A stretch of DNA of 39,626 nt from a virus, in the IMG/VR virus record IMGVR_UViG_3300030382_003464, positions 1-39,626 of that record; one strand, written 5' to 3'. Shown here piece after piece: positions 14,297 through 37,974 of the stretch (its first letter is position 1; every line of letters begins with the position of its first letter). A program made the translations under genes and the position numbers. Under the pieces are notes generated by a model, which was not told the origin of the DNA, did not search any database, and worked only from the letters and a program-made list of their open reading frames with translations.

Positions 14297-14354
14297 ACTC
14301 TCTCTATAGAGAATGAGCATATTAGTATCCCAAATCTTAAAAAATAATATAGTT

Positions 14355-14555: not shown

Positions 14556-14568
14556 AAAATTTAAAGAC

Positions 14569-15107: not shown

Positions 15108-15120
15108 TTATAATACTATT

Positions 15121-15276
15121 ATGGCTAAATTAAATAACAAACAGAAGAGAGGTATACGTAGACAAGTAGACATTGACCTTGGTGTTAATGATCCTTCTCA
15201 TAGTATACATAAGAATAAGAAGAAGTATAACCGTAAAGCTAAACATAAAAAGAAAGATGATCATGGAAATAATTAA
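15121..15276 (+). CDS. Small very basic early protein, 51 residues
   Basis: MAKLNNKQKRGIRRQVDIDLG, then NDPSHSIHKNKKKYNRKAKHKKKDD: about a third Lys/Arg/His. Likely nucleic-acid binding by charge alone. It overlaps the next start by 14 bases (ATG at 15263), consistent with coupled translation. No known domain. Confidence 0.5.
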   Translation: MAKLNNKQKRGIRRQVDIDLGVNDPSHSIHKNKKKYNRKAKHKKKDDHGNN

Positions 15277-15526
15277 AATATTTATGTTAATCACAGCTAT
15301 ATCTAGCAATTCAAATGAATTGATACAAGAGTATAGTTATTCTACACATGTAATCACAGAAGATAGTATTAATTGGTATGGTGATTGTAGTAATGATACT
15401 ATAATATGTGAGAAAAATGAAGAAATAGGAAATATATTAACACGAATTACAATCAAACATAACTTAGAAGATATGGATTATATAATTATTTATCCTGACT
15501 CAATAAGTTATACAATAAGAAAATAA
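15263..15526 (+). CDS. Small protein with short hydrophobic N-terminus
   Basis: An 87-residue protein from the ATG at 15263 (MEIIKIFMLITAISSNSNEL). The first 14 residues are hydrophobic, like a short signal or anchor, but there is no lipobox cysteine. The remainder is polar and beta-like (YSTHVITEDSINWYGDC, NDTIICEKNEE) with two cysteines that could pair if the protein is exported. Unknown function; a periplasmic or membrane-facing early protein is possible. Confidence 0.45.
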   Translation: MEIIKIFMLITAISSNSNELIQEYSYSTHVITEDSINWYGDCSNDTIICEKNEEIGNILTRITIKHNLEDMDYIIIYPDSISYTIRK

Positions 15527-15532
15527 AATATT

Positions 15533-15643
15533 ATGACATTTATTAAAGTAATATACTATTATTTTGGAACTATTGCAATATGGTTTATAATTGCAGTAAT
15601 ATTATTTATAATCATTTTAATATTTAAAAATAATAAAAGATGA
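15533..15643 (+). CDS. Tiny single-pass membrane protein, 36 residues
   Basis: MTFIKVIYYYFGTIAIWFII continues into VILFIIILIF and ends KNNKR: one transmembrane segment of about 22 residues with a basic cytoplasmic tail. Its stop overlaps the next start (ATGA at 15640). It could be an early membrane-acting peptide; holin-like action is not supported by its early position. Confidence 0.5.
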   Translation: MTFIKVIYYYFGTIAIWFIIAVILFIIILIFKNNKR

Positions 15644-15819
15644 ATGATAAATGGTGGCTCATAGAAACTTTCTTAAAGAAAGATAAACAATATACAGTTG
15701 GTGGACCAAGATCTAACTGGAGAGTTAAGGTATATCCAAAACCTAGAGTTTGGATCACAGAAGATACAATCAAGGAAGCTGAAAAATTTAATAAACGTAA
15801 TAAAAGAAAAAAATCATGA
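15640..15819 (+). CDS. Small basic protein, 59 residues
   Basis: Starts MNDKWWLIETFLKKDKQYTV and ends in a Lys/Arg-rich helix (KEAEKFNKRNKRKKS). Aromatic-rich N-terminus and two valine-rich strands (NWRVKVYPKPRVWI). Linked to both neighbours through ATGA overlaps, strong evidence that this chain of tiny frames is translated. Function unknown. Confidence 0.5.
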   Translation: MNDKWWLIETFLKKDKQYTVGGPRSNWRVKVYPKPRVWITEDTIKEAEKFNKRNKRKKS

Positions 15820-15947
15820 GACTAGTATTTGAAAAAATTCCAATGTTTGCAATTATTCCAGCAATAGTATGGGATATTGAAGATGATCACATAACTATAG
15901 GTATATTACTCGGTATATTTATAATTGCAATAGAATATCAAAGATGA
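15816..15947 (+). CDS. Tiny membrane protein, 43 residues
   Basis: MRLVFEKIPMFAIIPAIVW, then a charged loop DIEDDH and a second hydrophobic stretch ITIGILLGIFIIAI ending EYQR: a two-segment hairpin or a single long segment. Joined to the previous and next genes by ATGA overlaps. Unknown function. Confidence 0.5.
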   Translation: MRLVFEKIPMFAIIPAIVWDIEDDHITIGILLGIFIIAIEYQR

Positions 15948-16582
15948 AGAATCCTAATTTTAATTATACAAACTTGAAAGAAAGGTCTGAAAGATATGGG
16001 ACTACTACTATTATTGGTAGAAAGTCTCAGTTTAAGGGGAATTCAGTGAGTGTATACACAGCTGAACAAAATGAGATAACTGTTGTTAACTCATATTATA
16101 CAGATCATACTAGACAAATCTATTCCATTAAAGATAACAAGACTATTATTGATTACAATATTAATGGTGGTTTTAATCTTAAATGGTTAGAAAAGAAAAT
16201 GAGAAAGACATGTATGGATTTACTTATTCATCCTGCAGCAGGTATAACTGTTGAGGTAATAATGAATAGTAATATGTGTTGTAATTTTGATTTTTATGGA
16301 TATTATTTAACACATAAAGAGAGTAAAGAAGGTCTTATGTTTCAAGGTAATATTGATAACCTTAGTAAACTAAAGGAATTGAGACATATTCTCAGTGATG
16401 TTAGAAAGATTATTAAAAGAGTTAATCTAGCAGAGTTAGTAAAACATACAATAGATTATGACACAGGTGAATTAATACAGATAGCTGAACTAATAGATCC
16501 TGAAGATCAAGGAACAAGGTTACTTATTAATTATAATAAGTTGCTGAAGTTTGACAGAAGAATGAGTGATCATTCTGAGTGA
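15944..16582 (+). CDS. Unknown 212-residue protein
   Basis: Beta-rich N-terminal half (GTTTIIGRKSQFKG, VSVYTAEQNEITVV, RQIYSIKDNKTIIDYN) and a helical C-terminal half (LKELRHILSDVRKIIKRVN, LAELVKHTIDYD). Two adjacent cysteines lie in NMCCNFDFYGYY. No catalytic motif or family recognised. Last gene of the coupled early run, followed by a clear terminator at 16592. Translation start is shared with the ATGA of the previous gene. Confidence 0.55.
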   Translation: MKNPNFNYTNLKERSERYGTTTIIGRKSQFKGNSVSVYTAEQNEITVVNSYYTDHTRQIYSIKDNKTIIDYNINGGFNLKWLEKKMRKTCMDLLIHPAAGITVEVIMNSNMCCNFDFYGYYLTHKESKEGLMFQGNIDNLSKLKELRHILSDVRKIIKRVNLAELVKHTIDYDTGELIQIAELIDPEDQGTRLLINYNKLLKFDRRMSDHSE

Positions 16583-16591
16583 GTGAATGAG

Positions 16592-16633
16592 GGAGAGAAC
16601 TTATATATGGGTTCTCTCCTTTATTCTTTTTAT
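16592..16633 (+). terminator. Intrinsic terminator after the early small-gene run
   Basis: GGAGAGAAC (16592-16600) pairs perfectly with GTTCTCTCC (16611-16619) around a 10-base loop, followed by TTTATTCTTTTT. Nine G/C-containing pairs plus an imperfect U-tract. Confidence 0.7.
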
Positions 16634-16650
16634 AAACCAAAACAAGTATT

Positions 16651-16989
16651 ATGACAGGAACATTAGATTTTGAATTGTTGGATGACCATAGGGTACCTCC
16701 AACTATTAAACCAATGATTAAGTTACATGATTTATTAGTAAAAGGATGGAGAAGAGATAAGGAAGTTAAACTACCTAAACTTATATCTAAGATGGAAAAA
16801 GGTATATCAGAACAAGTTGAAGAGATGGTTAAGATAGAAAACCAAACACAATTTGTTAGTTTAAGGTTAGTTGAAGTTCTTAATAGTATAAGAAAATTAA
16901 TTGATGAACCAACTGATGATAACATAAGAGAGGCATTGATTAAACTATTAGACAAAAGTTGTGACAAATTAGAAAAAAAATATAAGTAA
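16651..16989 (+). CDS. Unknown helical protein, 112 residues
   Basis: Mostly helical with a short ordered start (DDHRVPPTIKPMIKLHDLL) and a heptad-like middle (LISKMEKGISEQVEEMVKIE, VSLRLVEVLNSIRKLIDEP). No family recognised. Its stop overlaps the next start by one base (TAATG at 16989), so the two are co-translated. A long frame on the opposite strand is a shadow. Confidence 0.5.
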   Translation: MTGTLDFELLDDHRVPPTIKPMIKLHDLLVKGWRRDKEVKLPKLISKMEKGISEQVEEMVKIENQTQFVSLRLVEVLNSIRKLIDEPTDDNIREALIKLLDKSCDKLEKKYK

Positions 16990-17480
16990 TGGCAATAGAA
17001 TTATCAGACTCAGTATTAATAAGAATACTACGTAATCATATTAAAGAAAATATAAATAAAGATTTTGTAATAGATCTAATCAACAGTAGACTCAGTGATA
17101 TAGACAAGGGTATATTATTAGAAATATTATTAAGTGAGGATCCATTTGAATCTCTTGATCAAGATGACATAGTCTGGGTTAAGATTAATAAATATGATTC
17201 ATCACAATATGGATGTCAACAAACATTAAGAGATCTTAATTTAATTCAAGATGATTATATAGTAGGAAGAATATCTGACTCTGATAATTATGGTTCTGAT
17301 TTTGATAAGTGGCACTATAAGTTTAAGGTTGAGATACTTATACTTAGAGAAGATAAATGGATGATTAATGAAGACTTAACAGTTGATAGAAAAGACATTA
17401 AACATATCACTGATTCTAAATTAAATGATGAATTAAGAAAAGCTTACAAGAATAAGCGGACTGAAGTCATTGAAGGATAG
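16989..17480 (+). CDS. Unknown 163-residue protein
   Basis: Acidic, mixed alpha/beta. Helical start (SVLIRILRNHIKENINKDF), then a strand-rich centre around DDIVWVKINKYDSSQYG and WHYKFKVEILILREDKW. The regular run of strands could be a small barrel, but no known fold is recognised. Co-operonic with the preceding gene by one-base overlap. Confidence 0.5.
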   Translation: MAIELSDSVLIRILRNHIKENINKDFVIDLINSRLSDIDKGILLEILLSEDPFESLDQDDIVWVKINKYDSSQYGCQQTLRDLNLIQDDYIVGRISDSDNYGSDFDKWHYKFKVEILILREDKWMINEDLTVDRKDIKHITDSKLNDELRKAYKNKRTEVIEG

Positions 17481-17500
17481 CTATATTACTCCTATTTATT

Positions 17501-17857
17501 TTGAGTCAGTATAATTATTATCTAAAAGATACTCATCTTATACCACAGTTGTTATATATATTTGCAGAAACTGTTAAGGAACAAGCAAATAATAATAGCA
17601 TGTTATATCAATTAAAAAATGGAAGAACTATTGAATTATCTTTAGAACAATTCTTGGAGATGAGTGATTTAGAACTTGAGGAGTTAGAAGGATTAGGTGT
17701 ACAACATACAATGGAGATTACTAATCCATTCTATAATACTTATCAAAAGAATACAAGAGAAAAGAAAGAAGACCTAACAGATGAACATGAGTTAGGTAAG
17801 ATAAATGAAAAGGTCAGAAGAGATGACAAATACTTTCATAACAAAGATGATGATTAG
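17501..17857 (+). CDS. Unknown 118-residue acidic protein (TTG start)
   Basis: The frame has no ATG until residue 34, so the TTG at 17501 is the best start (N-terminus SQYNYYLKDTHLIPQLLYIF); the alternative is a shorter protein from SMLYQLKNGR. Contains LSLEQFLEMSDLELEELEGL, an acidic helix pair, and a charged Lys/Glu/Asp tail. No family recognised. Followed by a strong terminator at 17883. Confidence 0.45.
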   Translation: MSQYNYYLKDTHLIPQLLYIFAETVKEQANNNSMLYQLKNGRTIELSLEQFLEMSDLELEELEGLGVQHTMEITNPFYNTYQKNTREKKEDLTDEHELGKINEKVRRDDKYFHNKDDD

Positions 17858-17882
17858 ATAAACTATTCATCATTATACATAC

Positions 17883-17937
17883 AAAGGATATATTATACTA
17901 GTGATCACTATCACGGGTATGGTATGTCCTTTTTTTA
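17883..17937 (+). terminator. Strong intrinsic terminator
   Basis: AAAGGATA (17883-17890) pairs with TGTCCTTT (17925-17932; one G-U), with ATAC/GTAT and GTGAT-cact-ATCAC stacked inside, followed by a run of T to 17936. It separates the early small-gene region from the 17975 gene, which must therefore have its own promoter in the 40 bases before it. Confidence 0.75.
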
Positions 17938-17974
17938 TTCAAATCAAATTAATTAATAATCAAAAAAGAAAGCT
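17938..17974 (+). promoter_or_regulatory. AATTAATTAAT leader motif before the acidic-tailed protein gene
   Basis: After the terminator only about 37 bases remain before the ATG, and they carry AAATTAATTAATAATC. A near-identical string precedes the 18818 gene, and shorter AATTAATTAA versions precede 25756 and 29444. It may be part of a phage-specific promoter or a ribosome-recruiting A/U-rich leader; no TAnnTTTG box is present. Confidence 0.35.
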
Positions 17975-18682
17975 ATGGCTAAAGTAGAGAACAAGGTAGA
18001 GATTGTGCCTAATGATCAAGGAGCAAAAATCCGTGTATCAGTAAACAATCCAGAATACGCACATGTACTATTAGTACAAAACAAAACATGGATAGCACCA
18101 TCAGGGTGGGTACGTCAAAGACGTATGAGCACATTATTAAATGGTAAAACTGAACTCATTCAGGAGTTAGGATTAAATAAGAAGAAATATTTACCAGGTC
18201 AAATAGTTATTAAAGAACAACTTGAACCATTCTCATGTTCTTCTGATGGAGACAGAGATATTAAATATGCTGGAGATACAGGAGTCATTTGTTGTAAAGA
18301 TGGTGAAATTATATATAGAAAATGTTTCTATGATGCAAGTGGTATTGACACAGATGTATTTGTACAACATACTAATGGAGATGCAATCAGAGAAGCTAAT
18401 GCTGCTAGAGTAGAAGAGAATAAAGTAACAATGGATGATGATGCATCAATGGTTAATGGTGAAGAATTCTTTACTAAGAATGAAGAAACAGATTCAGCTC
18501 AAATAGATCTTGAAGATTCAATTGCTGAAGTAGAAGCAACAGAGAATCATAATGAAGAAGATGGAGAAACAACTGAAACAAAAGTTGTTGAAGCTGCTGA
18601 AGAAGAGGAAATAGAGGAAGAGGAAGAAGAACTAGTAGAGATAGAAGAAGATGAAGAAGATATAGAAACATTTGAAAAGTAA
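17975..18682 (+). CDS. Conserved phage protein with long acidic tail
   Basis: A 235-residue protein. Residues 1-140 form an ordered domain with IRVSVNNPEYAHVLLVQ, GWVRQRRMSTLLNGK, LPGQIVIKEQLEPF, AGDTGVICCKDGE and YRKCFYDASG. This domain is familiar from Bacteroidota phages but has no function I can name. Residues 150-235 are a highly acidic, Glu-dominated tail (EEEEIEEEEEELVEIEEDEE). Acidic tails of this kind occur in single-strand binding proteins, DNA mimics and histone-chaperone-like proteins. It is a single-gene unit between two strong terminators, indicating tightly controlled and probably high expression. Confidence 0.55.
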   Translation: MAKVENKVEIVPNDQGAKIRVSVNNPEYAHVLLVQNKTWIAPSGWVRQRRMSTLLNGKTELIQELGLNKKKYLPGQIVIKEQLEPFSCSSDGDRDIKYAGDTGVICCKDGEIIYRKCFYDASGIDTDVFVQHTNGDAIREANAARVEENKVTMDDDASMVNGEEFFTKNEETDSAQIDLEDSIAEVEATENHNEEDGETTETKVVEAAEEEEIEEEEEELVEIEEDEEDIETFEK

Positions 18683-25755: not shown

Positions 25756-26442
25756 ATGTTAAACACTAAAGACATGTCCGTTGGGAGCGGCAAAGCAAGA
25801 CCATTAATGGGTCCTGGAAACACAGTAGTAAGAATTAATTCTATTACATTAGATCAAACACCATATGACAGAGATGCATATAATATAAATCTACATATGG
25901 AAACTCAACCAATTGAAGGAGAATTTGAAGGATTTTTTAGAGATAAAGATAATGAATCTAAAGGTAGATATGAAGGCCAGATTGGAAGAGTAAGAGTTTC
26001 ACCATTTCCTTTCAAGGATACTACATTACCTAGTGGTAGAGAGATTAATAAAGATCAAGAGATTTTAAAGTCTATGATATTCCTAGGAGAAGTATTAGAT
26101 AAAAGAGATGAGTTAGATTCTATTGAAGCAGAAACAATTGCTGATTTTATGAGTCAATGTAATACTCTCTTCTCAAATAGTGATTACTTTAATGTTTGTT
26201 TAGCTAGCCGTGAATGGGAAAATAAAGAAGGATATATAAACAATGATTTATATCTTCCTAAACTATCTAGAGATGGTGTACCAGCTGAACAATTAGAAAT
26301 GGAAGGAGATAACTCTAGACTAATTGAGTTTAATGCAGATACGCATGTTAAACCAGTAGTTAAAAAGAATACACCTGCTAATGGACAAGCTACTAAGTTT
26401 GAGCCTGCAGCATCAGTATCTGGATCAGACTTTGATCTTTAA
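25756..26442 (+). CDS. Single-strand DNA-binding protein-like
   Basis: A 228-residue protein. The body is beta-rich (TVVRINSITLDQTPYDRDAY, NINLHMETQPIEG, GQIGRVRVSPFPF) and fits an OB-fold. The low-complexity linker (KKNTPANGQATKFEPAASVS) ends in an acidic/aromatic tip SDFDL, the layout of SSB C-termini (compare DDIPF) that recruit partner proteins. Follows the Sak4-like ATPase and precedes primase. The leader carries AATTAATTAATTAAAA before the ATG. Family assignment rests on layout and context, not on close sequence identity. Confidence 0.6.
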   Translation: MLNTKDMSVGSGKARPLMGPGNTVVRINSITLDQTPYDRDAYNINLHMETQPIEGEFEGFFRDKDNESKGRYEGQIGRVRVSPFPFKDTTLPSGREINKDQEILKSMIFLGEVLDKRDELDSIEAETIADFMSQCNTLFSNSDYFNVCLASREWENKEGYINNDLYLPKLSRDGVPAEQLEMEGDNSRLIEFNADTHVKPVVKKNTPANGQATKFEPAASVSGSDFDL

Positions 26443-26457
26443 TAAATAATTTAGGCG

Positions 26458-26509
26458 GGGACTAACATAAAGGCGCTTTTGCCAAACAGTTAATACTATT
26501 GTTAGTCCC
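26458..26509 (+). terminator. Three-way-junction hairpin between SSB and primase genes
   Basis: GGGACTAACA (26458-26467) pairs perfectly over 10 bases with TGTTAGTCCC (26500-26509). Inside are two small arms: GGC/GCC around GCTTTT (26472-26483) and AGT/ACT around TAAT (about 26488-26497). A TTTTT follows nine bases later, just before the primase ATG at 26526. It can act as an attenuator or as an mRNA-processing/translation switch; the U-tract is offset from the stem, so full termination is doubtful. Confidence 0.55.
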
Positions 26510-26525
26510 TGTCTACTTTTTAATT

Positions 26526-27500
26526 ATGATTAGTACAAAGAATTTTATCAGTGAAAAAGATGAGATAAAAAGTAGTTGGGTATTTGAATACTACTTGGAT
26601 CTACCAGAAAGATTAACAGGACAAGATGTTAAAATCAAATCCATATTTAATCCTAATGAGAGAACACCAAGTATGTTTATTTATCTAGATACAACTCATA
26701 ATGAATATAGGTACAAGGATTTCTCTACTGGTAATCAAGGAAGTAAGATTGATTTAGTTTTAGCATTATTTAATTTAACATATTCTCAGGCATTATTCAG
26801 GGTAGTTGAAGACTACAATACATTCATTAGAGAGAATGGTTCTATAAAAGATGTAGAATATATACCGGTTGCTAAATATCAGGTAGACTATATCAAGAAC
26901 CGTGATTGGAATGCAATAGATGGAAGCTATTGGTTACAATATAATATAGGGTCAAGTTTGTTGACCACATATAATGTTAGACCAATTGAGTACTATACTA
27001 TGGTTAAAGAAGAGATGGATGATATAAGTAAAATTACTATTCAGAATCCTATGATCTATGGATACTATGATAAGAGTGGAGAAATATATAAGATATATCA
27101 ACCTAAACAGAAGAGACATAAGTTCATAAAAGTTAAATCTTATCTTCAGGGCCTGGATCAATTAACATATGAAAAGAAATACTTAGTTATATGTGCATCA
27201 CTTAAAGATGCGCTATGTATACTTAGTTTTAATTTTGGTATAGAAGTTATTGCTCCTGACTCAGAGAATACTATGATTAAACCATATGTAATCCAAAATC
27301 TTTTGTCAAAATATAAAAAAGTTGTATGTTTGCTGGATAATGATGAGGCTGGACATAATGCAATGAAGAAGTATAATAGATTATACAACATTGAATCAGT
27401 CAAATTAAAATCTGAAAAAGATATTTCTGATGCAGTTCAGAAGTACGGGGCTGAGTTAATACAGCCTAAATTGTTTAAGTTAATAAAAAGTATTTTATGA
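26526..27500 (+). CDS. DnaG-type primase with atypical TOPRIM domain
   Basis: A 324-residue protein from the ATG at 26526; an in-frame TTG at 26499 lies within the RNA stem and is unlikely. The N-terminal part (NPNERTPSMFIYLDTTHNEYR, KDFSTGNQGSKIDLV) is the fold of the DnaG zinc domain (phage/plasmid primases show F.DF..G..GD.i.lv) without the cysteine ligands. The C-terminal TOPRIM core shows LVICASLKDALC, VIAPDSEN, and VCLLDNDEAG. The canonical TOPRIM glutamate (EG in EG..D) is absent: the equivalent residues are A-S. The D-x-D pair is kept. Lays primers for the helicase/polymerase pair. Confidence 0.75.
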   Translation: MISTKNFISEKDEIKSSWVFEYYLDLPERLTGQDVKIKSIFNPNERTPSMFIYLDTTHNEYRYKDFSTGNQGSKIDLVLALFNLTYSQALFRVVEDYNTFIRENGSIKDVEYIPVAKYQVDYIKNRDWNAIDGSYWLQYNIGSSLLTTYNVRPIEYYTMVKEEMDDISKITIQNPMIYGYYDKSGEIYKIYQPKQKRHKFIKVKSYLQGLDQLTYEKKYLVICASLKDALCILSFNFGIEVIAPDSENTMIKPYVIQNLLSKYKKVVCLLDNDEAGHNAMKKYNRLYNIESVKLKSEKDISDAVQKYGAELIQPKLFKLIKSIL

Positions 27501-27886
27501 AATGGTTCATACCAGGTAATGTACCAAGCTCTAAGAATAGTAGACGGTGGACAGGAAAGTATTTCATAGCAAGTAAAACTGTTATGAAGTATAGAAAAGA
27601 AACTGAGAAACTATTTAAAGCAAATACTGTATCCTTCCAAAAAGAATTCAGTAAGTATGAGTTACCTGTGTATGTTCATTTCACTTTTATTAGAGGCACC
27701 CGTCATAAGTTTGATTATATTAACCCAGCACAAACAGTGCAGGATGATATGGTTAAACACGGATGGATTGAAGATGATAATTGTGAGTTCATTATACCTT
27801 GCTTTGAAGAATACAAGTATGATAAAAAAAATCCAGGAGTAATAATAGAAATTAAAAATGACAAAAATAAAAAAAACAATACTTGA
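27497..27886 (+). CDS. rusA: RusA-like Holliday junction resolvase
   Basis: A 129-residue protein, the usual RusA length. Starts MKWFIPGNVPSSKNSRRWTG, then KYRKET, FTFIRGTRHKFDYINPAQ, QDDMVKHGWIEDDN. The pattern D...N...D..v....i.DD is the RusA catalytic layout (D73, N76, D83/D84, D93/D94). The second Asp of the typical D-x-D-N is Ile here (DYIN), as in some Bacteroidota phage versions. Cuts four-way junctions so that concatemers can be packaged. Overlaps the primase by 4 bases and the next gene by 29. Confidence 0.8.
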   Translation: MKWFIPGNVPSSKNSRRWTGKYFIASKTVMKYRKETEKLFKANTVSFQKEFSKYELPVYVHFTFIRGTRHKFDYINPAQTVQDDMVKHGWIEDDNCEFIIPCFEEYKYDKKNPGVIIEIKNDKNKKNNT

Positions 27887-28262
27887 TTATAAATCTTTCA
27901 AAAATATATTAGCCATGTTTACATCCTCATCTAGTGAGGATTTTTTTTTGGCAGTAAAAATATGGCAAGGTTGTAAAAAAAATATAACTCTTAATACTAT
28001 AATAGCTAGACATATAGGCAAAACTGAATATAAAAAAGAAAGAGAAATGCATAAAAGATTACTTGAATTTACAAAGATCTATAATACATTTAATCTTGAT
28101 ACAACTTTTTATAAACTAATCAATAAGATGAGAGAAGAAGTTAATGATACTCTTTCTATTAGATTAATTAAAGAAGAAGTGAAGTACACTGTTAACACAT
28201 TAATAGATTATCACAATCTATTAGATATAATTAAATTAGAAATTAAAAATATTAAAATATGA
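27858..28262 (+). CDS. Unknown 134-residue protein containing an in-frame terminator
   Basis: Helical, basic protein (SFKNILAMFTSSSS, IARHIGKTEYKKEREMHKRL, LINKMREEVNDTLSIRLIKE). No family recognised. The start at 27858 overlaps RusA by 29 bases; its early codons TCCTCATCTAGTGAGGATTT also form a perfect terminator hairpin with nine T residues. If transcription stops there when translation is poor, the gene acts as an attenuator for the VWA/AAA module downstream. It overlaps the next gene by 4 bases. Confidence 0.5.
   Translation: MTKIKKTILDYKSFKNILAMFTSSSSEDFFLAVKIWQGCKKNITLNTIIARHIGKTEYKKEREMHKRLLEFTKIYNTFNLDTTFYKLINKMREEVNDTLSIRLIKEEVKYTVNTLIDYHNLLDIIKLEIKNIKI
27923..27949 (+). terminator. 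Textbook intrinsic terminator inside a coding sequence
   Basis: ATCCTCA (27923-27929) and TGAGGAT (27935-27941) form a perfect 7-bp stem with a TCTAG loop, directly followed by nine T (27941-27949). It lies about 65 bases into the 27858 gene, in frame and without disrupting it. It marks the boundary between the core replication genes and the VWA-metallopeptidase/MoxR module. Confidence 0.75.
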
Positions 28263-29422
28263 TACACATAGCAGACATAGTTGCAAGAGCAGCTAAAACG
28301 TTAATGTTCTCAGAGCCTTTCTATGGCTTATTCCTAGTAGGACTTAACAAAAAATATAGAAAAGACTTGCCCACGGCAGGTGTAAGTAAAAATGGTATAG
28401 GTATTCAATTAGCTATTAACCCAGAATTTTTTGAAAAATTAAATGAATATCAAAGAATTGGTTTACTTAAACATGAATTGTTACACGTCTCATTTGGACA
28501 CTTAGTAATGAGAGATAGGTTTAAATGCCCTAAATTATTTAATATAGCTGCAGATTTAGAAATTAATCAGTATATAGGTGATGACTATCTTCCTGAAGGT
28601 GGTGTTACTATGGAAATGTTTAAAGATCTTAACCTAAAGAGAAGAGCAGGTACTACATATTATTATGAAAAGTTAGAGGAAGCGCAGTGTGAAGGTAACT
28701 GTCCTACTTTAGAAAACATTCTTAATCAAATGTGTGGTAACAGTATATATGATCATCCAACATGGGATGAGTTTGAAGAATTATCTGAAGCAGAAAAAAA
28801 GTTAGTTCAAAAACAAATTGAACATCAACTTAAAGAAACAGCAGATGCTACTGAGAAAAGACAAGGTCATATACCCGGTGAATTAGCAGAGATCATTGAT
28901 AAATTAAGAATTCTTGAACCACCATCATTCCCATGGAAACAATATCTAAGAAGATTCGTAGGGAATTCTAGCATTAGTTATACAAAAAAGCTTAGGCGTA
29001 AGTATAATAAAAGATATACTGGAAATCCTGGTCTCAAAATTAAATTCAAAAATCATATTCTTGTTGGTGTTGACACATCTGGATCAGTATCCAATGATGA
29101 ACTTAAAGAATTTATGAATGAGTTATGTCATATGCATAAGACGGGTCATCAAATCACTGTAGCACAATGTGATACACAAATAGGTAGTATAGAAGTATTT
29201 AATCCTAAGAAAGATTGGGATATAACTGGAAGAGGAGGTACTGACTTTCAACCAGTTATAGATCATTATAATGAAAAGAAAGGGACCTATACGGCTCTAA
29301 TATATTTAACAGATGGAGAAGCATATACTCCAGAGAACTGTCCAAAGAATGCATTATGGGTACATAGTACTATGTGTAATATTAATGAAAATTTACCCGG
29401 ACAAAAAATTCAACTAAATTAA
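28259..29422 (+). CDS. VWA-domain protein with metallopeptidase domain (DUF2201/COG3864-like)
   Basis: A 387-residue protein. N-terminal half: HELLHVSFGH, a HExxH zinc site (H72, E73, H76), followed by NIAADLEINQY, the third-ligand helix of the putative metallopeptidase domain. C-terminal half: VGVDTSGSVS (D272-x-S274-x-S276, the MIDAS metal site) and LIYLTDGEAYTP, a von Willebrand A domain. This pairing is the DUF2201/VWA-like family, which almost always sits beside a MoxR-type ATPase, as here. Such pairs remodel target proteins: the ATPase supplies force and the VWA part recognises targets. Peptidase activity has not been shown for the family to my knowledge. Confidence 0.8.
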   Translation: MIHIADIVARAAKTLMFSEPFYGLFLVGLNKKYRKDLPTAGVSKNGIGIQLAINPEFFEKLNEYQRIGLLKHELLHVSFGHLVMRDRFKCPKLFNIAADLEINQYIGDDYLPEGGVTMEMFKDLNLKRRAGTTYYYEKLEEAQCEGNCPTLENILNQMCGNSIYDHPTWDEFEELSEAEKKLVQKQIEHQLKETADATEKRQGHIPGELAEIIDKLRILEPPSFPWKQYLRRFVGNSSISYTKKLRRKYNKRYTGNPGLKIKFKNHILVGVDTSGSVSNDELKEFMNELCHMHKTGHQITVAQCDTQIGSIEVFNPKKDWDITGRGGTDFQPVIDHYNEKKGTYTALIYLTDGEAYTPENCPKNALWVHSTMCNINENLPGQKIQLN

Positions 29423-29443
29423 TTAAAAAAAAACAAAAAGAAA

Positions 29444-30715
29444 ATGGCAGAAGTAAATTTAAACATTGAGGAACTAGACTCATTTATTGCACACATTGTA
29501 AAGAATAATAGATTCTTACAGGAACAAGGAAAAAATCCAGTTGCTATTGAAGTAGTGGGTGAGTCAGGTATTGGTAAGACTACTAGTATAATGGACATGG
29601 CTAAAAATCATAATCTTGATTTTGTTAAATTAAATTTAGCTCAGATAGAAGAGTTAGGAGATCTAGTAGGATTTCCTGTTAGACAATTTCAAATGTATAA
29701 AGAAAAAAAAGTTAAAATTAGTAACCCGGCTGATATAAATTATAACTCCTCACAAAGAGCAGCTGCTGCTGAGGATTTAACTAAGTTAGGAACTCCTACT
29801 ACTAAGAAAATTGGTTCTTGGGTAGATGAATTAGCAGTTGACAACTATCTTAAGAATGGTTGGAAGATGACTGGTAAGAATAGAATGTCTTACTGTGCAC
29901 CTGAATGGATTGCTGATAGAAAAAAAGGTGGTATCCTTTTACTTGATGATTGGAACCGTGCTGATGTTAGATTCATTCAAGCATGTATGGAACTAGTTGA
30001 CCGTCAGACATATATATCATGGACATTACCACAAGATTGGCATATTATATTAACTGCTAATCCTGATAATGGTGATTACATGGTTAATAGTGTTGATACA
30101 GCACAGAAGACTAGATACATTACAGCAAACCTTAAGTTTGATATTAATGTATGGGCTAAGTGGGCAGAAGAAGCAGGTATAGATTCAAGATGTATTAACT
30201 TTTTATTGATGCACCCTGAGCTTGTGAGTCAAGAGACTAATGCTAGATCTATATCAACGTTCTTTAATGCTATATCAGGTATTGAGAGCTTTGAAGAGAA
30301 TCTATCTCTTATTCAAATGATTGGTGAAGGTAGTGTAGGTGATGAGTTTTCATCTATGTTCACTATGTTTATTAATAATAAACTAGATAAGCTAATTACT
30401 CCTATGGATCTATTAACTCACACTGATGAGAAATATATTTTAGGAGAATTAAGAAGTTGTATTGGTAAAGATGATACATATCGTGCAGATATAGCATCAG
30501 CTTTAGCAACAAGACTTGCAAACTATTCTATTGTATACTCTAAGGAGAATACAGTTAATCAGAAAATAACTGATAGATTGATTGCACTGTGCACTAAAGA
30601 TTACTTTACTGATGATCTTAAGTACTTGGTTGTAAGAACTATCTTTAATGGTAATAAGCAGAAGTTTAATAAGATGATGATGAACCCTGCAATAATTAAA
30701 ATGACTGTAAAATAA
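29444..30715 (+). CDS. MoxR-like AAA+ ATPase, partner of the VWA protein
   Basis: A 423-residue AAA+ protein. Walker A GESGIGKTT (K45), Walker B GGILLLDDWNRA (D168-D169), sensor 1 IILTANPDNGDYMV, and a long helical C-terminal domain. MoxR-type ATPases act with a VWA partner as metal-dependent chaperones or protein-loading machines (RavA-ViaA, NorQ-NorD, CbbQ-CbbO are the known examples). The leader has AATTAATTAA and A-rich sequence before the ATG. Its stop overlaps the next start by one base. Confidence 0.8.
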   Translation: MAEVNLNIEELDSFIAHIVKNNRFLQEQGKNPVAIEVVGESGIGKTTSIMDMAKNHNLDFVKLNLAQIEELGDLVGFPVRQFQMYKEKKVKISNPADINYNSSQRAAAAEDLTKLGTPTTKKIGSWVDELAVDNYLKNGWKMTGKNRMSYCAPEWIADRKKGGILLLDDWNRADVRFIQACMELVDRQTYISWTLPQDWHIILTANPDNGDYMVNSVDTAQKTRYITANLKFDINVWAKWAEEAGIDSRCINFLLMHPELVSQETNARSISTFFNAISGIESFEENLSLIQMIGEGSVGDEFSSMFTMFINNKLDKLITPMDLLTHTDEKYILGELRSCIGKDDTYRADIASALATRLANYSIVYSKENTVNQKITDRLIALCTKDYFTDDLKYLVVRTIFNGNKQKFNKMMMNPAIIKMTVK

Positions 30716-31758
30716 TGGCAAAGAAAACAGTATTTCAAACAATTGATAATGCTGATGTTATTAATCTTGGTATAGAAGATGGTGTGCACTTTGGAGTGTT
30801 CACCTCTTCTAGCCTAGATGATATAGCAACAGTATTAGTAACAGAAGAAATAGATATATATCAAGAGATAGAAGAATTATTAATAAATGAAACTACTAAT
30901 GATTTAACCATTTTAAAAAAAGGATTTGTTCTGCCGGGATGTACAGTCTCTGCAGATAGAATAAAAGAGGCTGCTAAAGAACATAGTATAACTATTACTA
31001 ATGATTATGAGTCAGCAGATTTTATAATTACTGATGGAATAATAAGTCAAGATGCAGGAACAAATGCCAACTATCCAACTACAGCAATGCTTGTTGAGTT
31101 TCGTAATGGTTTATTGCTTCATGATTATAAAAATCAAGTTATTGATTATCATAACAAAACAGGTAATACCGTGTTCTGGGATAAAAGATGTAATCAATAT
31201 TGGAACTTGCGTGATTTTGAATATGGGTCAGCACCATATGATTCATATGTACTAACAGGTCTTGCTATTGCTTTAGCATCTAAGATTAAGTCAGGAGATA
31301 TGCACGTTATGGAAACTGAAACTCTTTTGAATTCATCTGCTAATATACAAACATTAACTGATCAATTACTTGGTGATATAAAAGGTATGTTACACAGTAG
31401 TGATGACCGGGAGATGTTAGGCGCATTATTACCTACTATAGATTATAGAAAAACTCCTGCATTAATGTGGAAGCTTGCTGGGTTATTAGCTGGTAAAGAG
31501 TACTATTGGTCTAGAAATAAGGACCTTAAGTATTGGTGGTCAAATGCTAACATTGATATACTAGGTTATATGAATGCTGAGGAAGCTGTTATGCATTATC
31601 ATGAGAATAATAAGCTTGACACAGAGAATTTTAAAATGTTAGAACCTATATGTAGAGAAGAGATTAGTATATCTAATAGATCTTTATATGTATTTAAGGT
31701 AGCAGTAAGTCCTAAATGGAGAAAATATTTAACTAATAAAACTAAAAAAAATGGATAA
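30715..31758 (+). CDS. BRCT-like domain protein A, paralogue of the next gene
   Basis: A 347-residue protein. Residues about 64-108 (ILKKGFVLPGCTVSADRIKE, then ITNDYESADFIITDG) match the BRCT fold outline: strand, helix, strand, then AD-hydrophobic-(V/I). A helical domain follows (GDIKGMLHSSDDREMLGALL), then an acidic/aromatic C-terminus (YYWSRNKDLKYWW). The same order of blocks recurs in the next protein, so the two are diverged paralogues. BRCT domains bind phosphorylated partners or DNA ends. Coupled by one base to the AAA gene and by 8 bases to its paralogue. No enzyme motif. Confidence 0.5.
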   Translation: MAKKTVFQTIDNADVINLGIEDGVHFGVFTSSSLDDIATVLVTEEIDIYQEIEELLINETTNDLTILKKGFVLPGCTVSADRIKEAAKEHSITITNDYESADFIITDGIISQDAGTNANYPTTAMLVEFRNGLLLHDYKNQVIDYHNKTGNTVFWDKRCNQYWNLRDFEYGSAPYDSYVLTGLAIALASKIKSGDMHVMETETLLNSSANIQTLTDQLLGDIKGMLHSSDDREMLGALLPTIDYRKTPALMWKLAGLLAGKEYYWSRNKDLKYWWSNANIDILGYMNAEEAVMHYHENNKLDTENFKMLEPICREEISISNRSLYVFKVAVSPKWRKYLTNKTKKNG

Positions 31759-32971
31759 GGAAATATTTAATTTAACTTTTGATGTAGAAAAATATTATCA
31801 AACAATAGATAAGAACAGTGTCCTTCAAAAAGATGATATTAAATTCCAATCAAAAGGTCTACGTATAGGAGATCATCATTGGAATGGTGGGAAAGAACGT
31901 TCATCTGATATTATTAAGGAAATAACAAAAAGAAATGTTGATTGGACAAATGTTAAGACAATGTATAGATTTCCTAATCTTTCTTTATCTAGAGATAAGC
32001 TTTCTTTATTAAAGGATAAGTATGGGACCAAGGTTATCAGAGATCAAAATAAGGCAGATGTATGTGTTATATCTAATAAGACTATAGAAAAACTTATTAG
32101 TGCTGATATGTACTATGGTGGTACTTGGACTATTAAACAATTCAATAAAAAGAAAATGCCTCAGTTAAAAAACATAATGACTGCTGAAGCATATGTATAT
32201 TTAGAAGGTGCGTTAGAACATCTTCAAGATGATTGGTATGTACACGGTCCAGATAGGTATAACTCTTGGAATACAACTGATCAATTCAAGAAATCTCCAT
32301 TAACATATTTTACAGATGATTTAAATGGTACTTGTTGGAGATCAGAAGAAGATGCTGGTAGTGGTGCATTATATATTGGTAATAAACATCTATCCGCATG
32401 GAATGCAATAAATGATCCAAACAAAATTTTCTTATCAGATGTATATGTGAATGAAGTTTGTTCTGAAGATTCTATTATGCTTGATTGGAAACAATATGAA
32501 AACATTAGAAAAATGTTAGGTGCTACTAGTGAAGATAGAAGTATTGCAATGACCCTTATGGCTAATTGCAAGATTGAAGAGTCTAAAACAGTCCTTGGTT
32601 TATTATTTTATCACTATGGTGATTCAATGAAAGGAACTAATACTTGGAATCAAGTAGCATTTAAAACATTACGTAAACAATTTGATCACTATATGATTAG
32701 TGGTTGGAATTCAGCTCATACAAGTACATTTAGTAGTTTGATAAAGAAGTTAGCTGAAGACAATGCATTAACTGAAGAGGCAATGAAACACATATGTAAA
32801 TTAGTATTTGAAAGAGTATTAATGAGTGGTTGTGGATTTAGTCAGGAACACTGTGCATTTGAAATGAAACTTGAAGATGTTAGATTAACTCAAACTTACA
32901 AAGATAAATTAATAAAAGAAGAGAAGACTCTTTCAGAATTAGTAACGGCAGGGAATGACCTTCCATTTTAA
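31751..32971 (+). CDS. BRCT-like domain protein B, paralogue of the previous gene
   Basis: A 406-residue protein. Residues about 72-115 (MYRFPNLSLSRDKLSLLKDK, then VIRDQNKADVCVIS) parallel the BRCT-like region of protein A. A matching helical block follows (ENIRKMLGATSEDRSIAMTL, then KTVLGLLFYHYG). The spacing I..ML.....DR.....L agrees between the two. Additional unique sequence near 120-230 (WTIKQFNKKKMPQLKN) may be a second lobe. No catalytic motif seen. Position after AAA and VWA genes suggests substrates or adaptors of that machine. Confidence 0.5.
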   Translation: MDKEIFNLTFDVEKYYQTIDKNSVLQKDDIKFQSKGLRIGDHHWNGGKERSSDIIKEITKRNVDWTNVKTMYRFPNLSLSRDKLSLLKDKYGTKVIRDQNKADVCVISNKTIEKLISADMYYGGTWTIKQFNKKKMPQLKNIMTAEAYVYLEGALEHLQDDWYVHGPDRYNSWNTTDQFKKSPLTYFTDDLNGTCWRSEEDAGSGALYIGNKHLSAWNAINDPNKIFLSDVYVNEVCSEDSIMLDWKQYENIRKMLGATSEDRSIAMTLMANCKIEESKTVLGLLFYHYGDSMKGTNTWNQVAFKTLRKQFDHYMISGWNSAHTSTFSSLIKKLAEDNALTEEAMKHICKLVFERVLMSGCGFSQEHCAFEMKLEDVRLTQTYKDKLIKEEKTLSELVTAGNDLPF

Positions 32972-32980: not shown

Positions 32981-33979
32981 ATGATAAAAGATTCAAATAA
33001 AGAGAAAGTGTTCCTAGAAGCATGTGCTTCTGGGACCTTTCAGTTTAGTTATTCTTCATTGAATAAACTTATATTTTCACCTAAGTTGTTCTATAAGGAT
33101 TATATACTTAAGGATAGGGAGGAGAGAACAGATAAGCATCTGATTCAAGGTAAACTTATACATTTACTATTGTTACAACCAGAAGAGTTTGATAATAATT
33201 TTGTATTACTACCTGCAAAGCTACCGTCTGAAACATTGCGTAAGGTCTTAAAAAATATTACGCTCTACACGGATGCTATAGAGTTGGTTCTAGTTGAGGA
33301 TAAAATAATTTCAGATTCTTTAAAAGAGGTAGGACTATACCAATCATTAAAGGATGAAAATAAACGTGTAGCTAAGGTACGTACTCCTGAGTGTGAAGAC
33401 TACTATAGATTTTTATGTACAACTAATAAAGATATTATAGATGAAGATACTCTAGAGAAATGTAAAGCTTCAGTAGAATTAATTAAAGATAACAAGTCTG
33501 TAATGGATTTGCTTGAAGATAATACTACTGACTTTGAAATGGATTCAATAGAAGTATTTAATGAAGCTCCTCTTAAATGTTCTCTTGATGGATATACATT
33601 TGGACTTAAAGGTATAGTTGATAGATATGTTATAGATCATGATAAAAAGGTGATCACTATCATAGACATCAAAACTACTGGTAAAACCATTGTAGACTTC
33701 CCTGAGACCGTAGAATTCTATAATTATTGGCTCCAAGCAGCCGTTTATATGACACTTGTTGCAAAAAATTTAGAAAAAAAGACTCAAGATTACAAAATTA
33801 ATTTTAACTTTATAGTAATAGATAAGTATAATCAGATCTATAACTTCCCTGTTAGGGAGACTACTATGAATGCCTGGGGAGATGGTATGAGTGGTATATT
33901 GGGCATGGTTAACTACCATGTTAAAGAAAATAGATTTGATCTTCCATATGATTTCTTAACTAAAACTATAAGTTTATAA
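32981..33979 (+). CDS. PD-(D/E)XK exonuclease-like protein (RecE/DUF3799-type)
   Basis: A 332-residue protein. Catalytic core: LKGIVDRYVIDH (D214), then ITIIDIKTTGKTIVDFP with D229-x-K231, followed by the helix YNYWLQAAVYMTLV carrying Q for the Q-x-x-x-Y motif. The N-terminal part (SYSSLNKLIFSPKLFYKDYI, then HLIQGKLIHLLLLQPEEFD) is typical of the RecE/PDDEXK_1-like group (S.S.L...aSP..........G...H...Lep). In phages, such enzymes resect dsDNA ends for recombination, here plausibly with Sak4 and the SSB. Distinct from the PD-(D/E)XK gene at 2938. Confidence 0.8.
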   Translation: MIKDSNKEKVFLEACASGTFQFSYSSLNKLIFSPKLFYKDYILKDREERTDKHLIQGKLIHLLLLQPEEFDNNFVLLPAKLPSETLRKVLKNITLYTDAIELVLVEDKIISDSLKEVGLYQSLKDENKRVAKVRTPECEDYYRFLCTTNKDIIDEDTLEKCKASVELIKDNKSVMDLLEDNTTDFEMDSIEVFNEAPLKCSLDGYTFGLKGIVDRYVIDHDKKVITIIDIKTTGKTIVDFPETVEFYNYWLQAAVYMTLVAKNLEKKTQDYKINFNFIVIDKYNQIYNFPVRETTMNAWGDGMSGILGMVNYHVKENRFDLPYDFLTKTISL

Positions 33980-35209: not shown

Positions 35210-37114
35210 ATGAAAAAACATTGGGTAATGGACTATGAAACACTTAAAAATTGCTTTGTAGGTGTATTCAAACATTATAAAACTAATGAGATAAAGATAT
35301 TTGTTATTCATGATCTTAAAAATGATCTAAAAGAATTCTTAGAATTTCTTTCTGACAATATAAAGAATAGGGAATGGCATATATCTTACAATGGTCTTGC
35401 ATTTGATGCACAGATAACACATTATATTATAGATAATGCTGAATATCTGATGAGCATAAAACCATCTGAAGTTACTGAGATATTATATAAAGAAGCTCAA
35501 GCTATTATAGGTAGATCTAATAGAAGAGAGTTTCAGAAGTATCCTGAATGGCGTATGCGTATAACACAAATAGATGTATTTAAGTTAAACCACTGGGATA
35601 ATATGGCCAAAAGATCTAGTTTAAAATGGATAGAATATACTATGGATTGGGATAATATTTTAGATATGCCTATTCATCATGAGTCAGAGATAACTACTCA
35701 AGAGCAATTAGACACTATCGTAGAGTATTGTATTAATGATGTTGAGGCCACCAATGAGATCTATAACCGGTCTAAAAGTTTAATTGGTTTAAGACTAAAT
35801 CTATCTGAACAGTATGATATTAACCTTATTAATGCTTCTGAGCCACGTATATCTAAAGAATTGTTTAGTTATTACTTAAGTGATGATTTAGGTATATCAA
35901 AAAGGGACCTTAAAGCAATGAGAACATATAGAGAAACCATTAAGTTAGATGGAATTATATTGCCTTATGTAAACTTTAAGACACCTGAATTCCAGATGTT
36001 GTTAAATAGATTTAAAACTGTTGAATTAGACCCTACTAACATTAAAGGTGCATTTAAATACTCTGTTACTTATAAAGGTGTAAAGACACACTTTGGATTA
36101 GGTGGAGCACACGGTGCTGCTAGAGCAGGAGTATATGAGTCTGATGAAGAAAAAATTATAATGTCTTCTGATGTTACTAGTTTCTATCCTAATCTAGCTA
36201 TAAAGAATGAGTGGTCTCCCGCACATTTACCTTCTGAGCAGTTTTGCAGGCTATATAACTGGTTCTTTACAGAAAGAAAGAAAATCCCTAAGAATGATCC
36301 TATGAACTATGTATATAAGATTATACTAAATAGTACATATGGTCTATCTAATGATAAGAATTCTTTCCTATATGATCCTGAGTTCACTATGCGTATCACC
36401 ATTAATGGTCAACTAACATTAATGATGTTATATGAAATGATCATGGAAGCTATACCAGATGCTATACCTTTACTACAAAATACAGATGGTATTGAAACAA
36501 TTATTCCTAAATCAGCTGAAGAAGAATATCTTAAAGTCTGTGCCCGCTGGGAGCGCATAACAGACTTTAATCTTGAACATGATAAGTATAAGAAAATTGT
36601 TCTTGCTGATGTAAATAACTATATAGCAATAAATACTGACGGTAAAGCTAAATGCAAGGGACGGTTTGAATTTAAAAACTTAGCTCTGCATAAGAACAAG
36701 TCTAAACTAGTTATACCTAAAGCTATATATGAATACTTTGTTAATGATGTATTACCTGAAGACTATCTTAAGACTAATAAGAATATATTAGATTATTGTA
36801 TTGGTAGTAAAACAAATAGTGGATGGCAACTAACAGCCACTGGCCTAAAGGATGGATTAAAAACTGAAGAAAAACTACAAAAGATAAACAGATATTACGT
36901 TAGTAATCAAGGGATTAAGATTCTTAAAATAAATAAAAATGATGGTAGAATTATTCAACTTGAAGCTGGTCAATGGTTACAAACTGTATTTAATAAGATG
37001 GAACAACAAGAATGGGAAAAATATAATATTAATATAAAATATTATATGCAAACTATTGAAAAAGAAATCAATAATATTCTTGGTGTATCATCCAATCAAT
37101 TAGAATTATTTTAA
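35210..37114 (+). CDS. Family B DNA polymerase with 3'-5' exonuclease
   Basis: A 634-residue polymerase. Exonuclease: ExoI MDYETL (D8, E10), ExoII YNGLAFD, ExoIII EYCINDV, all intact. Polymerase: motif A SSDVTSFYP (D321), motif B KIILNSTYG (K370), motif C QNTDG (D426), where the usual D-T-D is N-T-D; the retained Asp is the metal ligand. Shorter than cellular family B enzymes, as in crAss-like phages. The C-terminus ends NQLELF, a fit to the bacterial sliding-clamp motif QL[S/D]LF (E. coli Pol II ends similarly), so it can recruit the host beta clamp. Main replicase of the phage. Confidence 0.85.
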   Translation: MKKHWVMDYETLKNCFVGVFKHYKTNEIKIFVIHDLKNDLKEFLEFLSDNIKNREWHISYNGLAFDAQITHYIIDNAEYLMSIKPSEVTEILYKEAQAIIGRSNRREFQKYPEWRMRITQIDVFKLNHWDNMAKRSSLKWIEYTMDWDNILDMPIHHESEITTQEQLDTIVEYCINDVEATNEIYNRSKSLIGLRLNLSEQYDINLINASEPRISKELFSYYLSDDLGISKRDLKAMRTYRETIKLDGIILPYVNFKTPEFQMLLNRFKTVELDPTNIKGAFKYSVTYKGVKTHFGLGGAHGAARAGVYESDEEKIIMSSDVTSFYPNLAIKNEWSPAHLPSEQFCRLYNWFFTERKKIPKNDPMNYVYKIILNSTYGLSNDKNSFLYDPEFTMRITINGQLTLMMLYEMIMEAIPDAIPLLQNTDGIETIIPKSAEEEYLKVCARWERITDFNLEHDKYKKIVLADVNNYIAINTDGKAKCKGRFEFKNLALHKNKSKLVIPKAIYEYFVNDVLPEDYLKTNKNILDYCIGSKTNSGWQLTATGLKDGLKTEEKLQKINRYYVSNQGIKILKINKNDGRIIQLEAGQWLQTVFNKMEQQEWEKYNINIKYYMQTIEKEINNILGVSSNQLELF

Positions 37115-37137: not shown

Positions 37138-37974
37138 ATGGGACATAAAAAACCAAAATTTACAACAAGGGCTTATTTAGAGACAGCCCCTCTTCCTAAA
37201 CATGGTAAAACTTATACTGTAGTATCACATAAGGAAGTAATAGATCATACAGATGGTCTATTAAAATCACATGGATTCTCTATAAAAAAGCAAATATTTA
37301 GATCTAATATGAATGCCAAGGTAGCACAGGGAATATACTATATTACTTCTGACATAGCTCAATCTGATGAAGATTTAGGTATGATGTTTGCTTGGACTAA
37401 TTCATATGATAAGAGTACACGGTTCCAGTGCGGGATAGGTGCTCATGTTTTTGTATGCAATAATGGTTTGATCCATGGAGATCTTGATACATTTGCTAGA
37501 AAACATACAGGTACTGCTAACTCTGAAGTATCTGGCGCTATTGCTACACATATTGGTAAAGCTAATCATACATTTAAAGAACTTGTTACTAATAAAAATG
37601 ATATGAAAGATATTCCTCTAACTATAACTCAGCAATCTGAACTTATGGGAAGGTTGTTTGTTGAAGAGAAATTACTTGATTCACAACAAATGTCTTGTGT
37701 TAAATCTGAAATGGAAAAAGCATCATATGCGTATGGTGTTGGTTCTGAAACAGCATGGATATTCTATAATCATGTAACACATGCTTTTAAGCAAACACAC
37801 CCAAGGAATTGGATGGAAAATCAAGCTAAGTTTCATAAGTTTATGACTAGTGAAATATTAAGTGCGCATACTATTAAACAGAATGATACACCAAATTCAC
37901 AAGATATTGATGTAGATAATGTAGATAGTAATGAAGAAGAAATAGTAGATGCTAATAATTTCTTTGATATGTAA
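37138..37974 (+). CDS. DUF932-family phage/plasmid protein
   Basis: A 278-residue protein. KTYTVVSHKEVIDHTDGLL, then the segment YYITSDIAQSDEDLGMMFAW, then NSYDKSTRFQCGIGAHVFVCNN, the family signature (N.yD.s.....g....vC.N). The end is acidic (DVDNVDSNEEEIVDANN). DUF932 proteins are common on phages, plasmids and conjugative elements and are thought to affect DNA transfer or replication, but no activity is known to me. Has its own promoter candidate at 37115. Starts 24 bases after the polymerase stop. Confidence 0.7.
   Translation: MGHKKPKFTTRAYLETAPLPKHGKTYTVVSHKEVIDHTDGLLKSHGFSIKKQIFRSNMNAKVAQGIYYITSDIAQSDEDLGMMFAWTNSYDKSTRFQCGIGAHVFVCNNGLIHGDLDTFARKHTGTANSEVSGAIATHIGKANHTFKELVTNKNDMKDIPLTITQQSELMGRLFVEEKLLDSQQMSCVKSEMEKASYAYGVGSETAWIFYNHVTHAFKQTHPRNWMENQAKFHKFMTSEILSAHTIKQNDTPNSQDIDVDNVDSNEEEIVDANNFFDM

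Follow-up and report, generated by a model that had tools for sequence, protein, structure and literature searches.

Phages are already known to encode a MoxR-type AAA+ ATPase together with a VWA protein that has a metallopeptidase domain, as in N4 (gp24/gp25) and in jumbo phages. In the group 2.2 jumbo phages, where the metallopeptidase is at the N-terminus of the vWA protein, the pair was proposed to have a role in virion assembly (Iyer et al. 2021, PMC7824862). In CbbQO, the AAA+ ring powers remodelling and the metal ion-dependent adhesion site (MIDAS) of the VWA domain binds the target (PMC4660213). Some bacterial MoxR-vWA systems are ternary, with a third partner (VMAP or iSTAND) and associations with peptide processing (PMC7159879). 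Here we describe a locus in the IMG/VR virus record IMGVR_UViG_3300030382_003464 where the metallopeptidase-VWA/MoxR pair is encoded along with three related partner proteins, which we call P0, P3, and P4. ("The window" is the whole stretch of DNA that we analysed, bases 1-39626 of this 48,488 bp record.) The core pair is known; the new part is the partner family, the three-member arrangement, and a tail on P4 that resembles the C-terminus of bacterial single-stranded DNA-binding protein (SSB). We found no description of these in the open-access literature (most subscription papers were outside its scope), and an earlier, sequence-only reading of this DNA likewise knew of no such system.

The genes for the VWA-metallopeptidase and the AAA+ ATPase are homologous to those of N4-type phages of the Schitoviridae, such as LUZ7 (gp24 is the AAA ATPase and gp25 is the vWFA protein). 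In those phages, however, the AAA gene comes first, a different small open reading frame (ORF) lies between the two genes, and no P0, P3, or P4 was found. The group 2.2 jumbo-phage pair has the same domain architecture in its VWA protein, and a MoxR partner, but virion assembly was proposed for it and no partner family was described. We also did not detect P0, P3, or P4 with the comparable pairs of Bacillus phage BpSp and Cyanophage S-TIM5. As to its neighbours, the pair adjoins DNA helicase and polymerase genes in LUZ7 and a helicase in Moorella phage MTATph1, and it is near topoisomerase genes in BpSp. The rubisco activase CbbQ/CbbO, RavA/ViaA, and midasin (Rea1) also combine an AAA+ motor with a VWA adaptor that has a MIDAS, and midasin is the closest sequence match in the PDB for the window's ATPase. 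These systems differ in having other targets and no BRCT-like or SSB-tailed partners, and CbbO as described has no zincin domain. The VMAP/iSTAND systems have a MoxR-vWA core with a dedicated, co-encoded, fast-evolving third protein, but as described, that protein is VMAP or iSTAND, and the systems are cellular and have effector domains.

The sequence-only reading had proposed a four-part system: the VWA-metallopeptidase, the ATPase, and two BRCT-like paralogues (P3 and P4), joined by small overlaps or short gaps. Indeed, these are four adjoining ORFs on the plus strand (28259-32971, checked in the window), with a 21 bp gap between VWA and AAA, a 1 bp overlap between AAA and P3, and an 8 bp overlap between P3 and P4. 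But P0, whose gene overlaps the VWA gene by 4 bp, is a third relative of P3 and P4, so the unit has five genes (P0-VWA-AAA-P3-P4) and not four. The SSB-like tail of P4, the rapid change of the partner proteins, and the crAss-like setting were likewise absent from that reading. At the other end, a PD-(D/E)XK nuclease gene follows P4 after a 9 bp gap. The features of the unit are as follows.

27858-28262, plus strand: P0, 134 amino acids, helical block only (residues ~16-98), third member of the P3/P4 family (by hhalign and hidden Markov model, or HMM)
28259-29422, plus strand: VWA-metallopeptidase, 387 amino acids (by Pfam, phrog_1314 at 5e-64, and motifs)
29444-30715, plus strand: MoxR-like AAA+ ATPase, 423 amino acids (by phrog_1297 at 3e-32 and profile matches to midasin AAA modules at 4.5e-6)
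30715-31758, plus strand: P3, a 347 amino acid orphan with a BRCT-like block and then a helical block (by AlphaFold)
30919-31032, plus strand: BRCT-like core of P3, residues ~69-106, FVLPGCTVSADRIKEAAKEHSITITNDYESADFIIT (by Foldseek and alignment to a LigA BRCT profile)
31324-31707, plus strand: helical block of P3, residues ~204-331 (by AlphaFold secondary structure and profile alignment to P4)
31751-32971, plus strand: P4, a 406 amino acid orphan, paralogue of P3 with an SSB-like C-terminal tail (by AlphaFold and BFVD matches)
31958-32071, plus strand: BRCT-like core of P4, residues ~70-107 (by Foldseek)
32462-32830, plus strand: helical block of P4, residues ~238-360, common to P0 and P3 (by HMM and profile comparison and AlphaFold)
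32939-32968, plus strand: C-terminal tail of P4, LVTAGNDLPF, which resembles the SSB C-terminal peptide DDDLPF/DDDIPF (by sequence and low AlphaFold confidence at 400-406)

P3 and P4 belong to no family in Pfam, PHROG, or NCBIfam, and P0, P3, and P4 have no match in PADLOC or NCBIfam. Compared by BLASTP as two single proteins, the window's P3 and P4 are not convincingly similar (E = 0.08). For profile comparison, we collected families from IMG/VR (71 P3, 69 P4, and 89 P0 sequences). The P3 and P4 families were aligned by hhalign over 281 collinear columns (P = 2.7e-7), and the P0 family aligned to P4 columns 234-330, which is the helical block alone (P = 3.6e-7, probability 92.9%). As controls, we compared 8 other families from the operon to P3, P4, and P0; these gave P = 0.0015 at best and 0.08-0.7 otherwise. 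(A match between the primase and P3, at 16.6%, was set aside as chance.) A search with an HMM built from P3 alone recovers the window's P4 (E = 2.9e-6), and the P0 HMM matches 40 of the 69 P4 sequences at E < 1e-3. Furthermore, one locus (L048) has a single-copy protein that bridges P3 and P4, as it is matched by both the P3-only HMM (2.6e-11) and the P4-only HMM (1.5e-23). By profile comparison, P3 and P4 are real paralogues and, as the sequence-only reading had it, ancient duplicates.

AlphaFold gave confident models, with a predicted local distance difference test (pLDDT) of 87 and a predicted template modelling score (pTM) of 0.79 for P3, from an alignment of 31 sequences, and 86 and 0.73 for P4, from 32 sequences. 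When the whole chains were compared to the PDB with Foldseek, nothing significant was found. Sequence searches of the PDB gave no match for the P3 profile and five short or repeat-like matches for the P4 profile (designed PPR proteins and ferritin). Among the viral models of BFVD, the P3/P4 folds have four matches (E = 3e-10 to 3e-6): one in CrAss-like virus ctYsL76, two in Podoviridae ctz6O13, and one in an uncultured phage.

The partner genes are kept with the core pair. Among the IMG/VR loci with a related ATPase, there are at least 523 confirmed relatives. Our census of P3 and P4 covered 97 loci with distinct ATPases, and we counted the 75 that have at least 2.8 kb downstream. All 75 contain P3/P4-like genes: 67 have two, 8 have one, and none has zero. 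The order VWA-AAA-P3-P4 is present in 67 of these 75 distinct loci, and this neighbourhood survey bears out the claim that the gene order is conserved in related phages. At some of the loci with two P3/P4 genes, the one that comes first encodes a short form (~160 amino acids). Among 50,697 phage records, P3, P4, and the single-copy protein of L048 had no match by tblastn. For the single-copy protein of another locus, L055, the search gave a single weak match, shared by two near-identical Vibrio phages; it is not next to a VWA/AAA pair, and we rejected it.

P0, P3, and P4 are also the fastest-evolving genes of the replication operon. The median protein identity between random pairs of loci is 32% for P0, 33% for P4, and 42% for P3, while the medians for nine neighbours are 46-81% (81% for the ATPase and 69% for the polymerase). 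Between close pairs, the pooled ratio of nonsynonymous to synonymous change (dN/dS) is 0.39 for P4, 0.29 for P0, and 0.24 for P3, as compared to 0.06-0.18 for the neighbours. These ratios were computed by the Nei-Gojobori method, which is crude, from few pairs that are not phylogenetically independent, and dN/dS stays below 1 apart from a single pair that has hardly any synonymous differences. These rates show change that is relaxed or diversifying, short of proven positive selection. In addition, locus L014/L001 matches the window at 98.5% DNA identity for 8.3 kb; this stretch of high identity stops at position 31750, one base ahead of P4, and beyond it the identity falls to ~57-72% through P4. 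This looks like an allele swap, but as the L014/L001 contig runs out within P4, the assembly may be chimeric. The L084/L133 pair has a milder pattern: P0, P3, and P4 are 65%, 65%, and 46% identical, and the other genes are 86-97% identical.

The claim that P3 and P4 share a BRCT-like block stands in part. Among the 50 Foldseek rows listed for each model against the PDB, BRCT domains were the only matches with a probability above 0.45. For P3, these were the BRCT domain of PARP1 (0.87) and another BRCT (0.77, with a root-mean-square deviation, or rmsd, of 1.8 over 44 columns); for P4, they were the BRCT domain of PARP1 (0.82, rmsd of 2.0 over 51 columns, and 0.57) and that of MCPH1 (0.54). The E-values for such matches were 0.36-1.3. 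We also built a profile from 11 LigA-type BRCTs from public records, and the full-length P3 profile aligns with it in register at the motif (P = 0.0016). A profile of the block alone gave P = 2e-4, with a cut that was chosen after the position of the block had been seen. Ten other profiles from the operon, used as controls, gave P of at least 0.19 against the LigA profile, and the P4 profile gave no signal. The Pfam model for BRCT (PF00533), which the sequence-only reading named as a check, has no match in the window genome at E ≤ 10; its cut-off is not reached by any of 31 members of the P3 family (the best is at 0.047), and it is not among the families listed for 32 members of the P4 family. 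In summary, the likeness to the BRCT domains of LigA and PARP1 lies in a beta-alpha-beta-beta core of ~45-50 residues, and in the LigA register of the P3 motif; the differences are that the similarity is below significance, that the Pfam cut-off is not reached, and that in P3 and P4 the domain is fused to an unplaced helical block. We have moderate confidence that the block is BRCT-like, which is short of proof.

The window's P4 ends in NDLPF, and the AlphaFold model shows residues 400-406, the final 7, as disordered (low pLDDT). Bacterial SSB tails, which dock partner proteins, end in DDDIPF (in E. coli) or DDDLPF (in S. aureus SsbA) (PMC5531588). An end of this kind, DLPF or DDLPF on a disordered tail, occurs in 24 of the 74 complete, unique P4 homologues, while LPF-type ends are found in 0 of 84 P3 proteins and in 1 of 94 members of a putative phage SSB family. 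(The exception is the putative SSB of L055, which ends in SDLPF; the single P3/P4-like protein of that locus lacks the tail.) P4 itself is not an SSB. The operon's putative SSB, a 228 amino acid protein at 25756-26442 on the plus strand, ends in DF(D/E)L. It belongs to no Pfam or PHROG family and nearly all of its 94 unique homologues have an acidic (D/S)DF(D/E)L-type C-terminus. It is likely to be a new SSB family of crAss-like phages. LPF is also a degron for ClpXP in some strains of Streptococcus mutans, which is unrecognised in E. coli (PMC5143411), so we infer, rather than observe, that the P4 tail docks partners.

For the core pair, the sequence-only reading correctly recognised the known DUF2201/MoxR pairing in the first two genes, and the HELLH, DTSGS, and GESGIGKT motifs that it cited are all present. 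The VWA protein has an N-terminal zincin-like DUF2201_N domain (with HELLH at residues 72-76 and N.A.D..IN) and a C-terminal VWA domain with a full MIDAS (DTSGS at 272-276, GGT, and TDG). It passes the Pfam cut-offs for DUF2201_N (2e-18, 67.4 bits versus a cut-off of 23.2) and DUF2201 (1.4e-16, 61.2 bits versus 26.4). Across 91 unique homologues, HExxH, NxAxDxxxN, GGT, and [TS]DG are each present in 91, and DxSGS is present in 85. The HExxH and N.A.D motifs make the zincin domain a candidate protease. The ATPase has a Walker A motif (GESGIGKT), a Walker B motif (ILLLDDWNRAD), TANPD, and AQKTR, and by strict patterns the Walker A, Walker B, sensor, and arginine-finger motifs of the MoxR/midasin group are kept in 82-91 of 91 unique homologues. 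It has weak matches to AAA in Pfam and belongs to phrog_1297 (3e-32), and the AAA modules of midasin are the best PDB sequence matches of its profile (4.5e-6). The VWA family is present in 534 phage records, including N4-like phages, where it is gp25 and lies near the ATPase gp24. PHROG names this family (phrog_1314) "HNH endonuclease," which we rejected because the matched domains and motifs are those of a DUF2201 zincin and a VWA domain. This label is repeated in many phage records and appears to be wrong and widely copied. We also observed that ~400 bp separate the VWA and AAA genes in L097, L098, L126-L129, L132, L140, and L147, which leaves room for a small gene.

The unit lies within a replication operon. 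DnaB-like helicase, Sak4, and another DNA helicase are encoded just upstream of the genes listed below, and the order SSB-primase-RusA-P0-VWA-AAA-P3-P4-exonuclease-P6-P7-PolB is kept across relatives (P6 and P7 are two small genes between the exonuclease and the polymerase). The neighbours in the window are as follows.

25756-26442, plus strand: putative phage SSB, 228 amino acids, with a conserved (D/S)DF(D/E)L-type acidic tail (by its place between Sak4 and primase and the tail survey)
26499-27500, plus strand: DnaG-type primase with Toprim (by Pfam and PHROG)
27497-27886, plus strand: RusA-like Holliday junction resolvase
32981-33979, plus strand: PD-(D/E)XK (RecE-like) exonuclease (by Pfam and PHROG)
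35210-37114, plus strand: family B DNA polymerase (phrog_1252, 1.6e-141)

Directly after the polymerase is a DUF932 protein (37138-37974, plus strand; 7e-17). Elsewhere in the window, a 2386 amino acid ORF (6351-13508, minus strand) has no match in PHROG and contains two HExxH motifs (AHEYGHLVHALEDIGG and AHEFGHADKRM); it may be a virion protein that has two zincin domains.

We place the window's phage in the crAss-like lineage by way of a relative, L008. Its 123 kb contig has a match to the Crassvirus major capsid protein (PF23898, 8.3e-32) and one to P22_portal (6.8e-8), and the ATPase of its module is ~90% identical to the window's. The Terminase_6N model of Pfam found nothing in six relatives, and therefore the capsid was used for placement. 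In phi14:2, which has the best match to the polymerase, the whole module is missing from the 24 kb that we examined. Phage-like contigs are present in a Pseudomonadales and a Campylobacteraceae metagenome-assembled genome, with binning too weak to name a host. In the literature, the replication block of crAss-like phages includes primase, DnaB, SNF2, and an AAA+ ATPase (PMC7886860, PMC10136315), and VWA, BRCT, and MoxR are absent from the main text of these two papers. A 123 kb relative (L168) has a 5257 amino acid ORF (2759-18529, minus strand), whose length is comparable to that of the giant RNA polymerases or virion proteins found in crAss-like phages.

How might these proteins work together? 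We tentatively favour a MoxR/VWA remodeller that is directed to replication or recombination by dedicated, diversifying adaptors, and we rate this as quite possible. P0-VWA-AAA-P3-P4 would form one crAss-like phage machine, with a MoxR-type AAA+ ring, a VWA-metallopeptidase as the substrate receptor, and three paralogous proteins as adaptors or targeting subunits. If it works as CbbQ/CbbO and midasin do, the force would come from the AAA+ ring, and the MIDAS of the VWA domain would grip an acidic residue of the target. P3 and P4 would couple a BRCT-like protein-binding module to the helical module that is common to all three partners, and this helical module would probably serve for docking, either to the VWA/AAA+ core or to fellow partners. 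Thus the partners would share a docking block and differ in targeting, and the tail of P4 would lead to SSB-binding proteins. A bolder version seems unlikely to us as a whole: three diversifying BRCT-like/helical adaptors aim the core, one of them mimics the tail of the host's SSB, P4 is an exchangeable specificity cassette, and the five-part machine dismantles or rewires the replication, repair, or defence complexes on single-stranded DNA.

Several observations weigh against a replication-directed machine of this kind. Six annotated phages from outside the census group (LUZ7, MTATph1, BpSp, S-TIM5, AD45-P1, and Vibrio phage pv27) have the VWA gene, and our search of its surroundings revealed none of P0, P3, and P4; a phage MoxR/VWA pair can therefore exist without them. 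(A match in pv27 to the P4 HMM, at E = 0.03, is at chance level.) The BRCT matches from Foldseek, over 44-60 columns, are below formal significance; the LPF tail is missing from two thirds of the P4 homologues; and a role in replication is not proven by operon context alone.

The published proposal for the jumbo-phage pair, by analogy with the Acidianus two-tailed virus (PMC7824862), would make the machine a chaperone for virion assembly: it would fold, assemble, or proteolytically process structural proteins, with P3 and P4 as assembly factors or as substrates. The pair is near virion genes in S-TIM5, but at the loci that we saw, the module sits inside the replication operon, and in the 123 kb relative it lies a long way from the genes for capsid, portal, and terminase, all of them encoded on the other strand. 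The SSB-like tail and the LigA-like BRCT block also point to DNA transactions, and we consider virion assembly to be improbable. Alternatively, P0, P3, and P4 could be dedicated substrates that are cleaved by the VWA-metallopeptidase or unfolded by the AAA+ ring, for instance as a timed switch. The zincin motifs HExxH and N.A.D..IN are present in all 91 homologues, and bacterial MoxR/VWA systems have associations with peptide processing (PMC7159879). The tail might alternatively flag P4 for degradation, given that ClpXP reads LPF as a degron in certain S. mutans strains, but E. coli does not recognise that degron (PMC5143411). Paralogy and structured domains suit adaptors better, and overall, the data lean somewhat toward adaptors or targeting subunits over plain substrates; we give the substrate explanation little weight.

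Counter-defence or host takeover deserves more attention, although we still think it unlikely. Here the machine would remodel or unfold a defence, replication, or repair complex of the host, and P0, P3, and P4 would recognise targets in an arms race. Within the operon, dN/dS is highest and protein identity lowest for P4, P0, and P3, locus L014/L001 diverges abruptly from the window at P4, and the LPF ends match those of bacterial SSBs (PMC5531588). On the other hand, dN/dS is nearly always below 1, the apparent swap of P4 adjoins the end of a contig, and there is no similarity to known defence or anti-defence families: the only match among the PADLOC defence models was a weak P-loop match to the ATPase (DolB, 0.0042). 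Also, near-universal conservation of the module would be expected of a core function more than of an accessory gene against defence.

Hundreds of phage records contain the metallopeptidase-VWA/MoxR pair, for whose target virion assembly is the only proposal that we found in print. A widespread lineage that keeps this pair, with three dedicated partners, in its replication operon offers a testable handle on what the target is, and it adds an unnamed family to the replication block of crAss-like phages. A protein with an SSB-like docking tail would give a phage machine a direct route into the DNA-repair and replication complexes of bacteria. Many crAssphage-related viruses of the ocean carry this ATP-driven remodelling machine and its partners among their replication genes, and it may be aimed at DNA replication or repair complexes.

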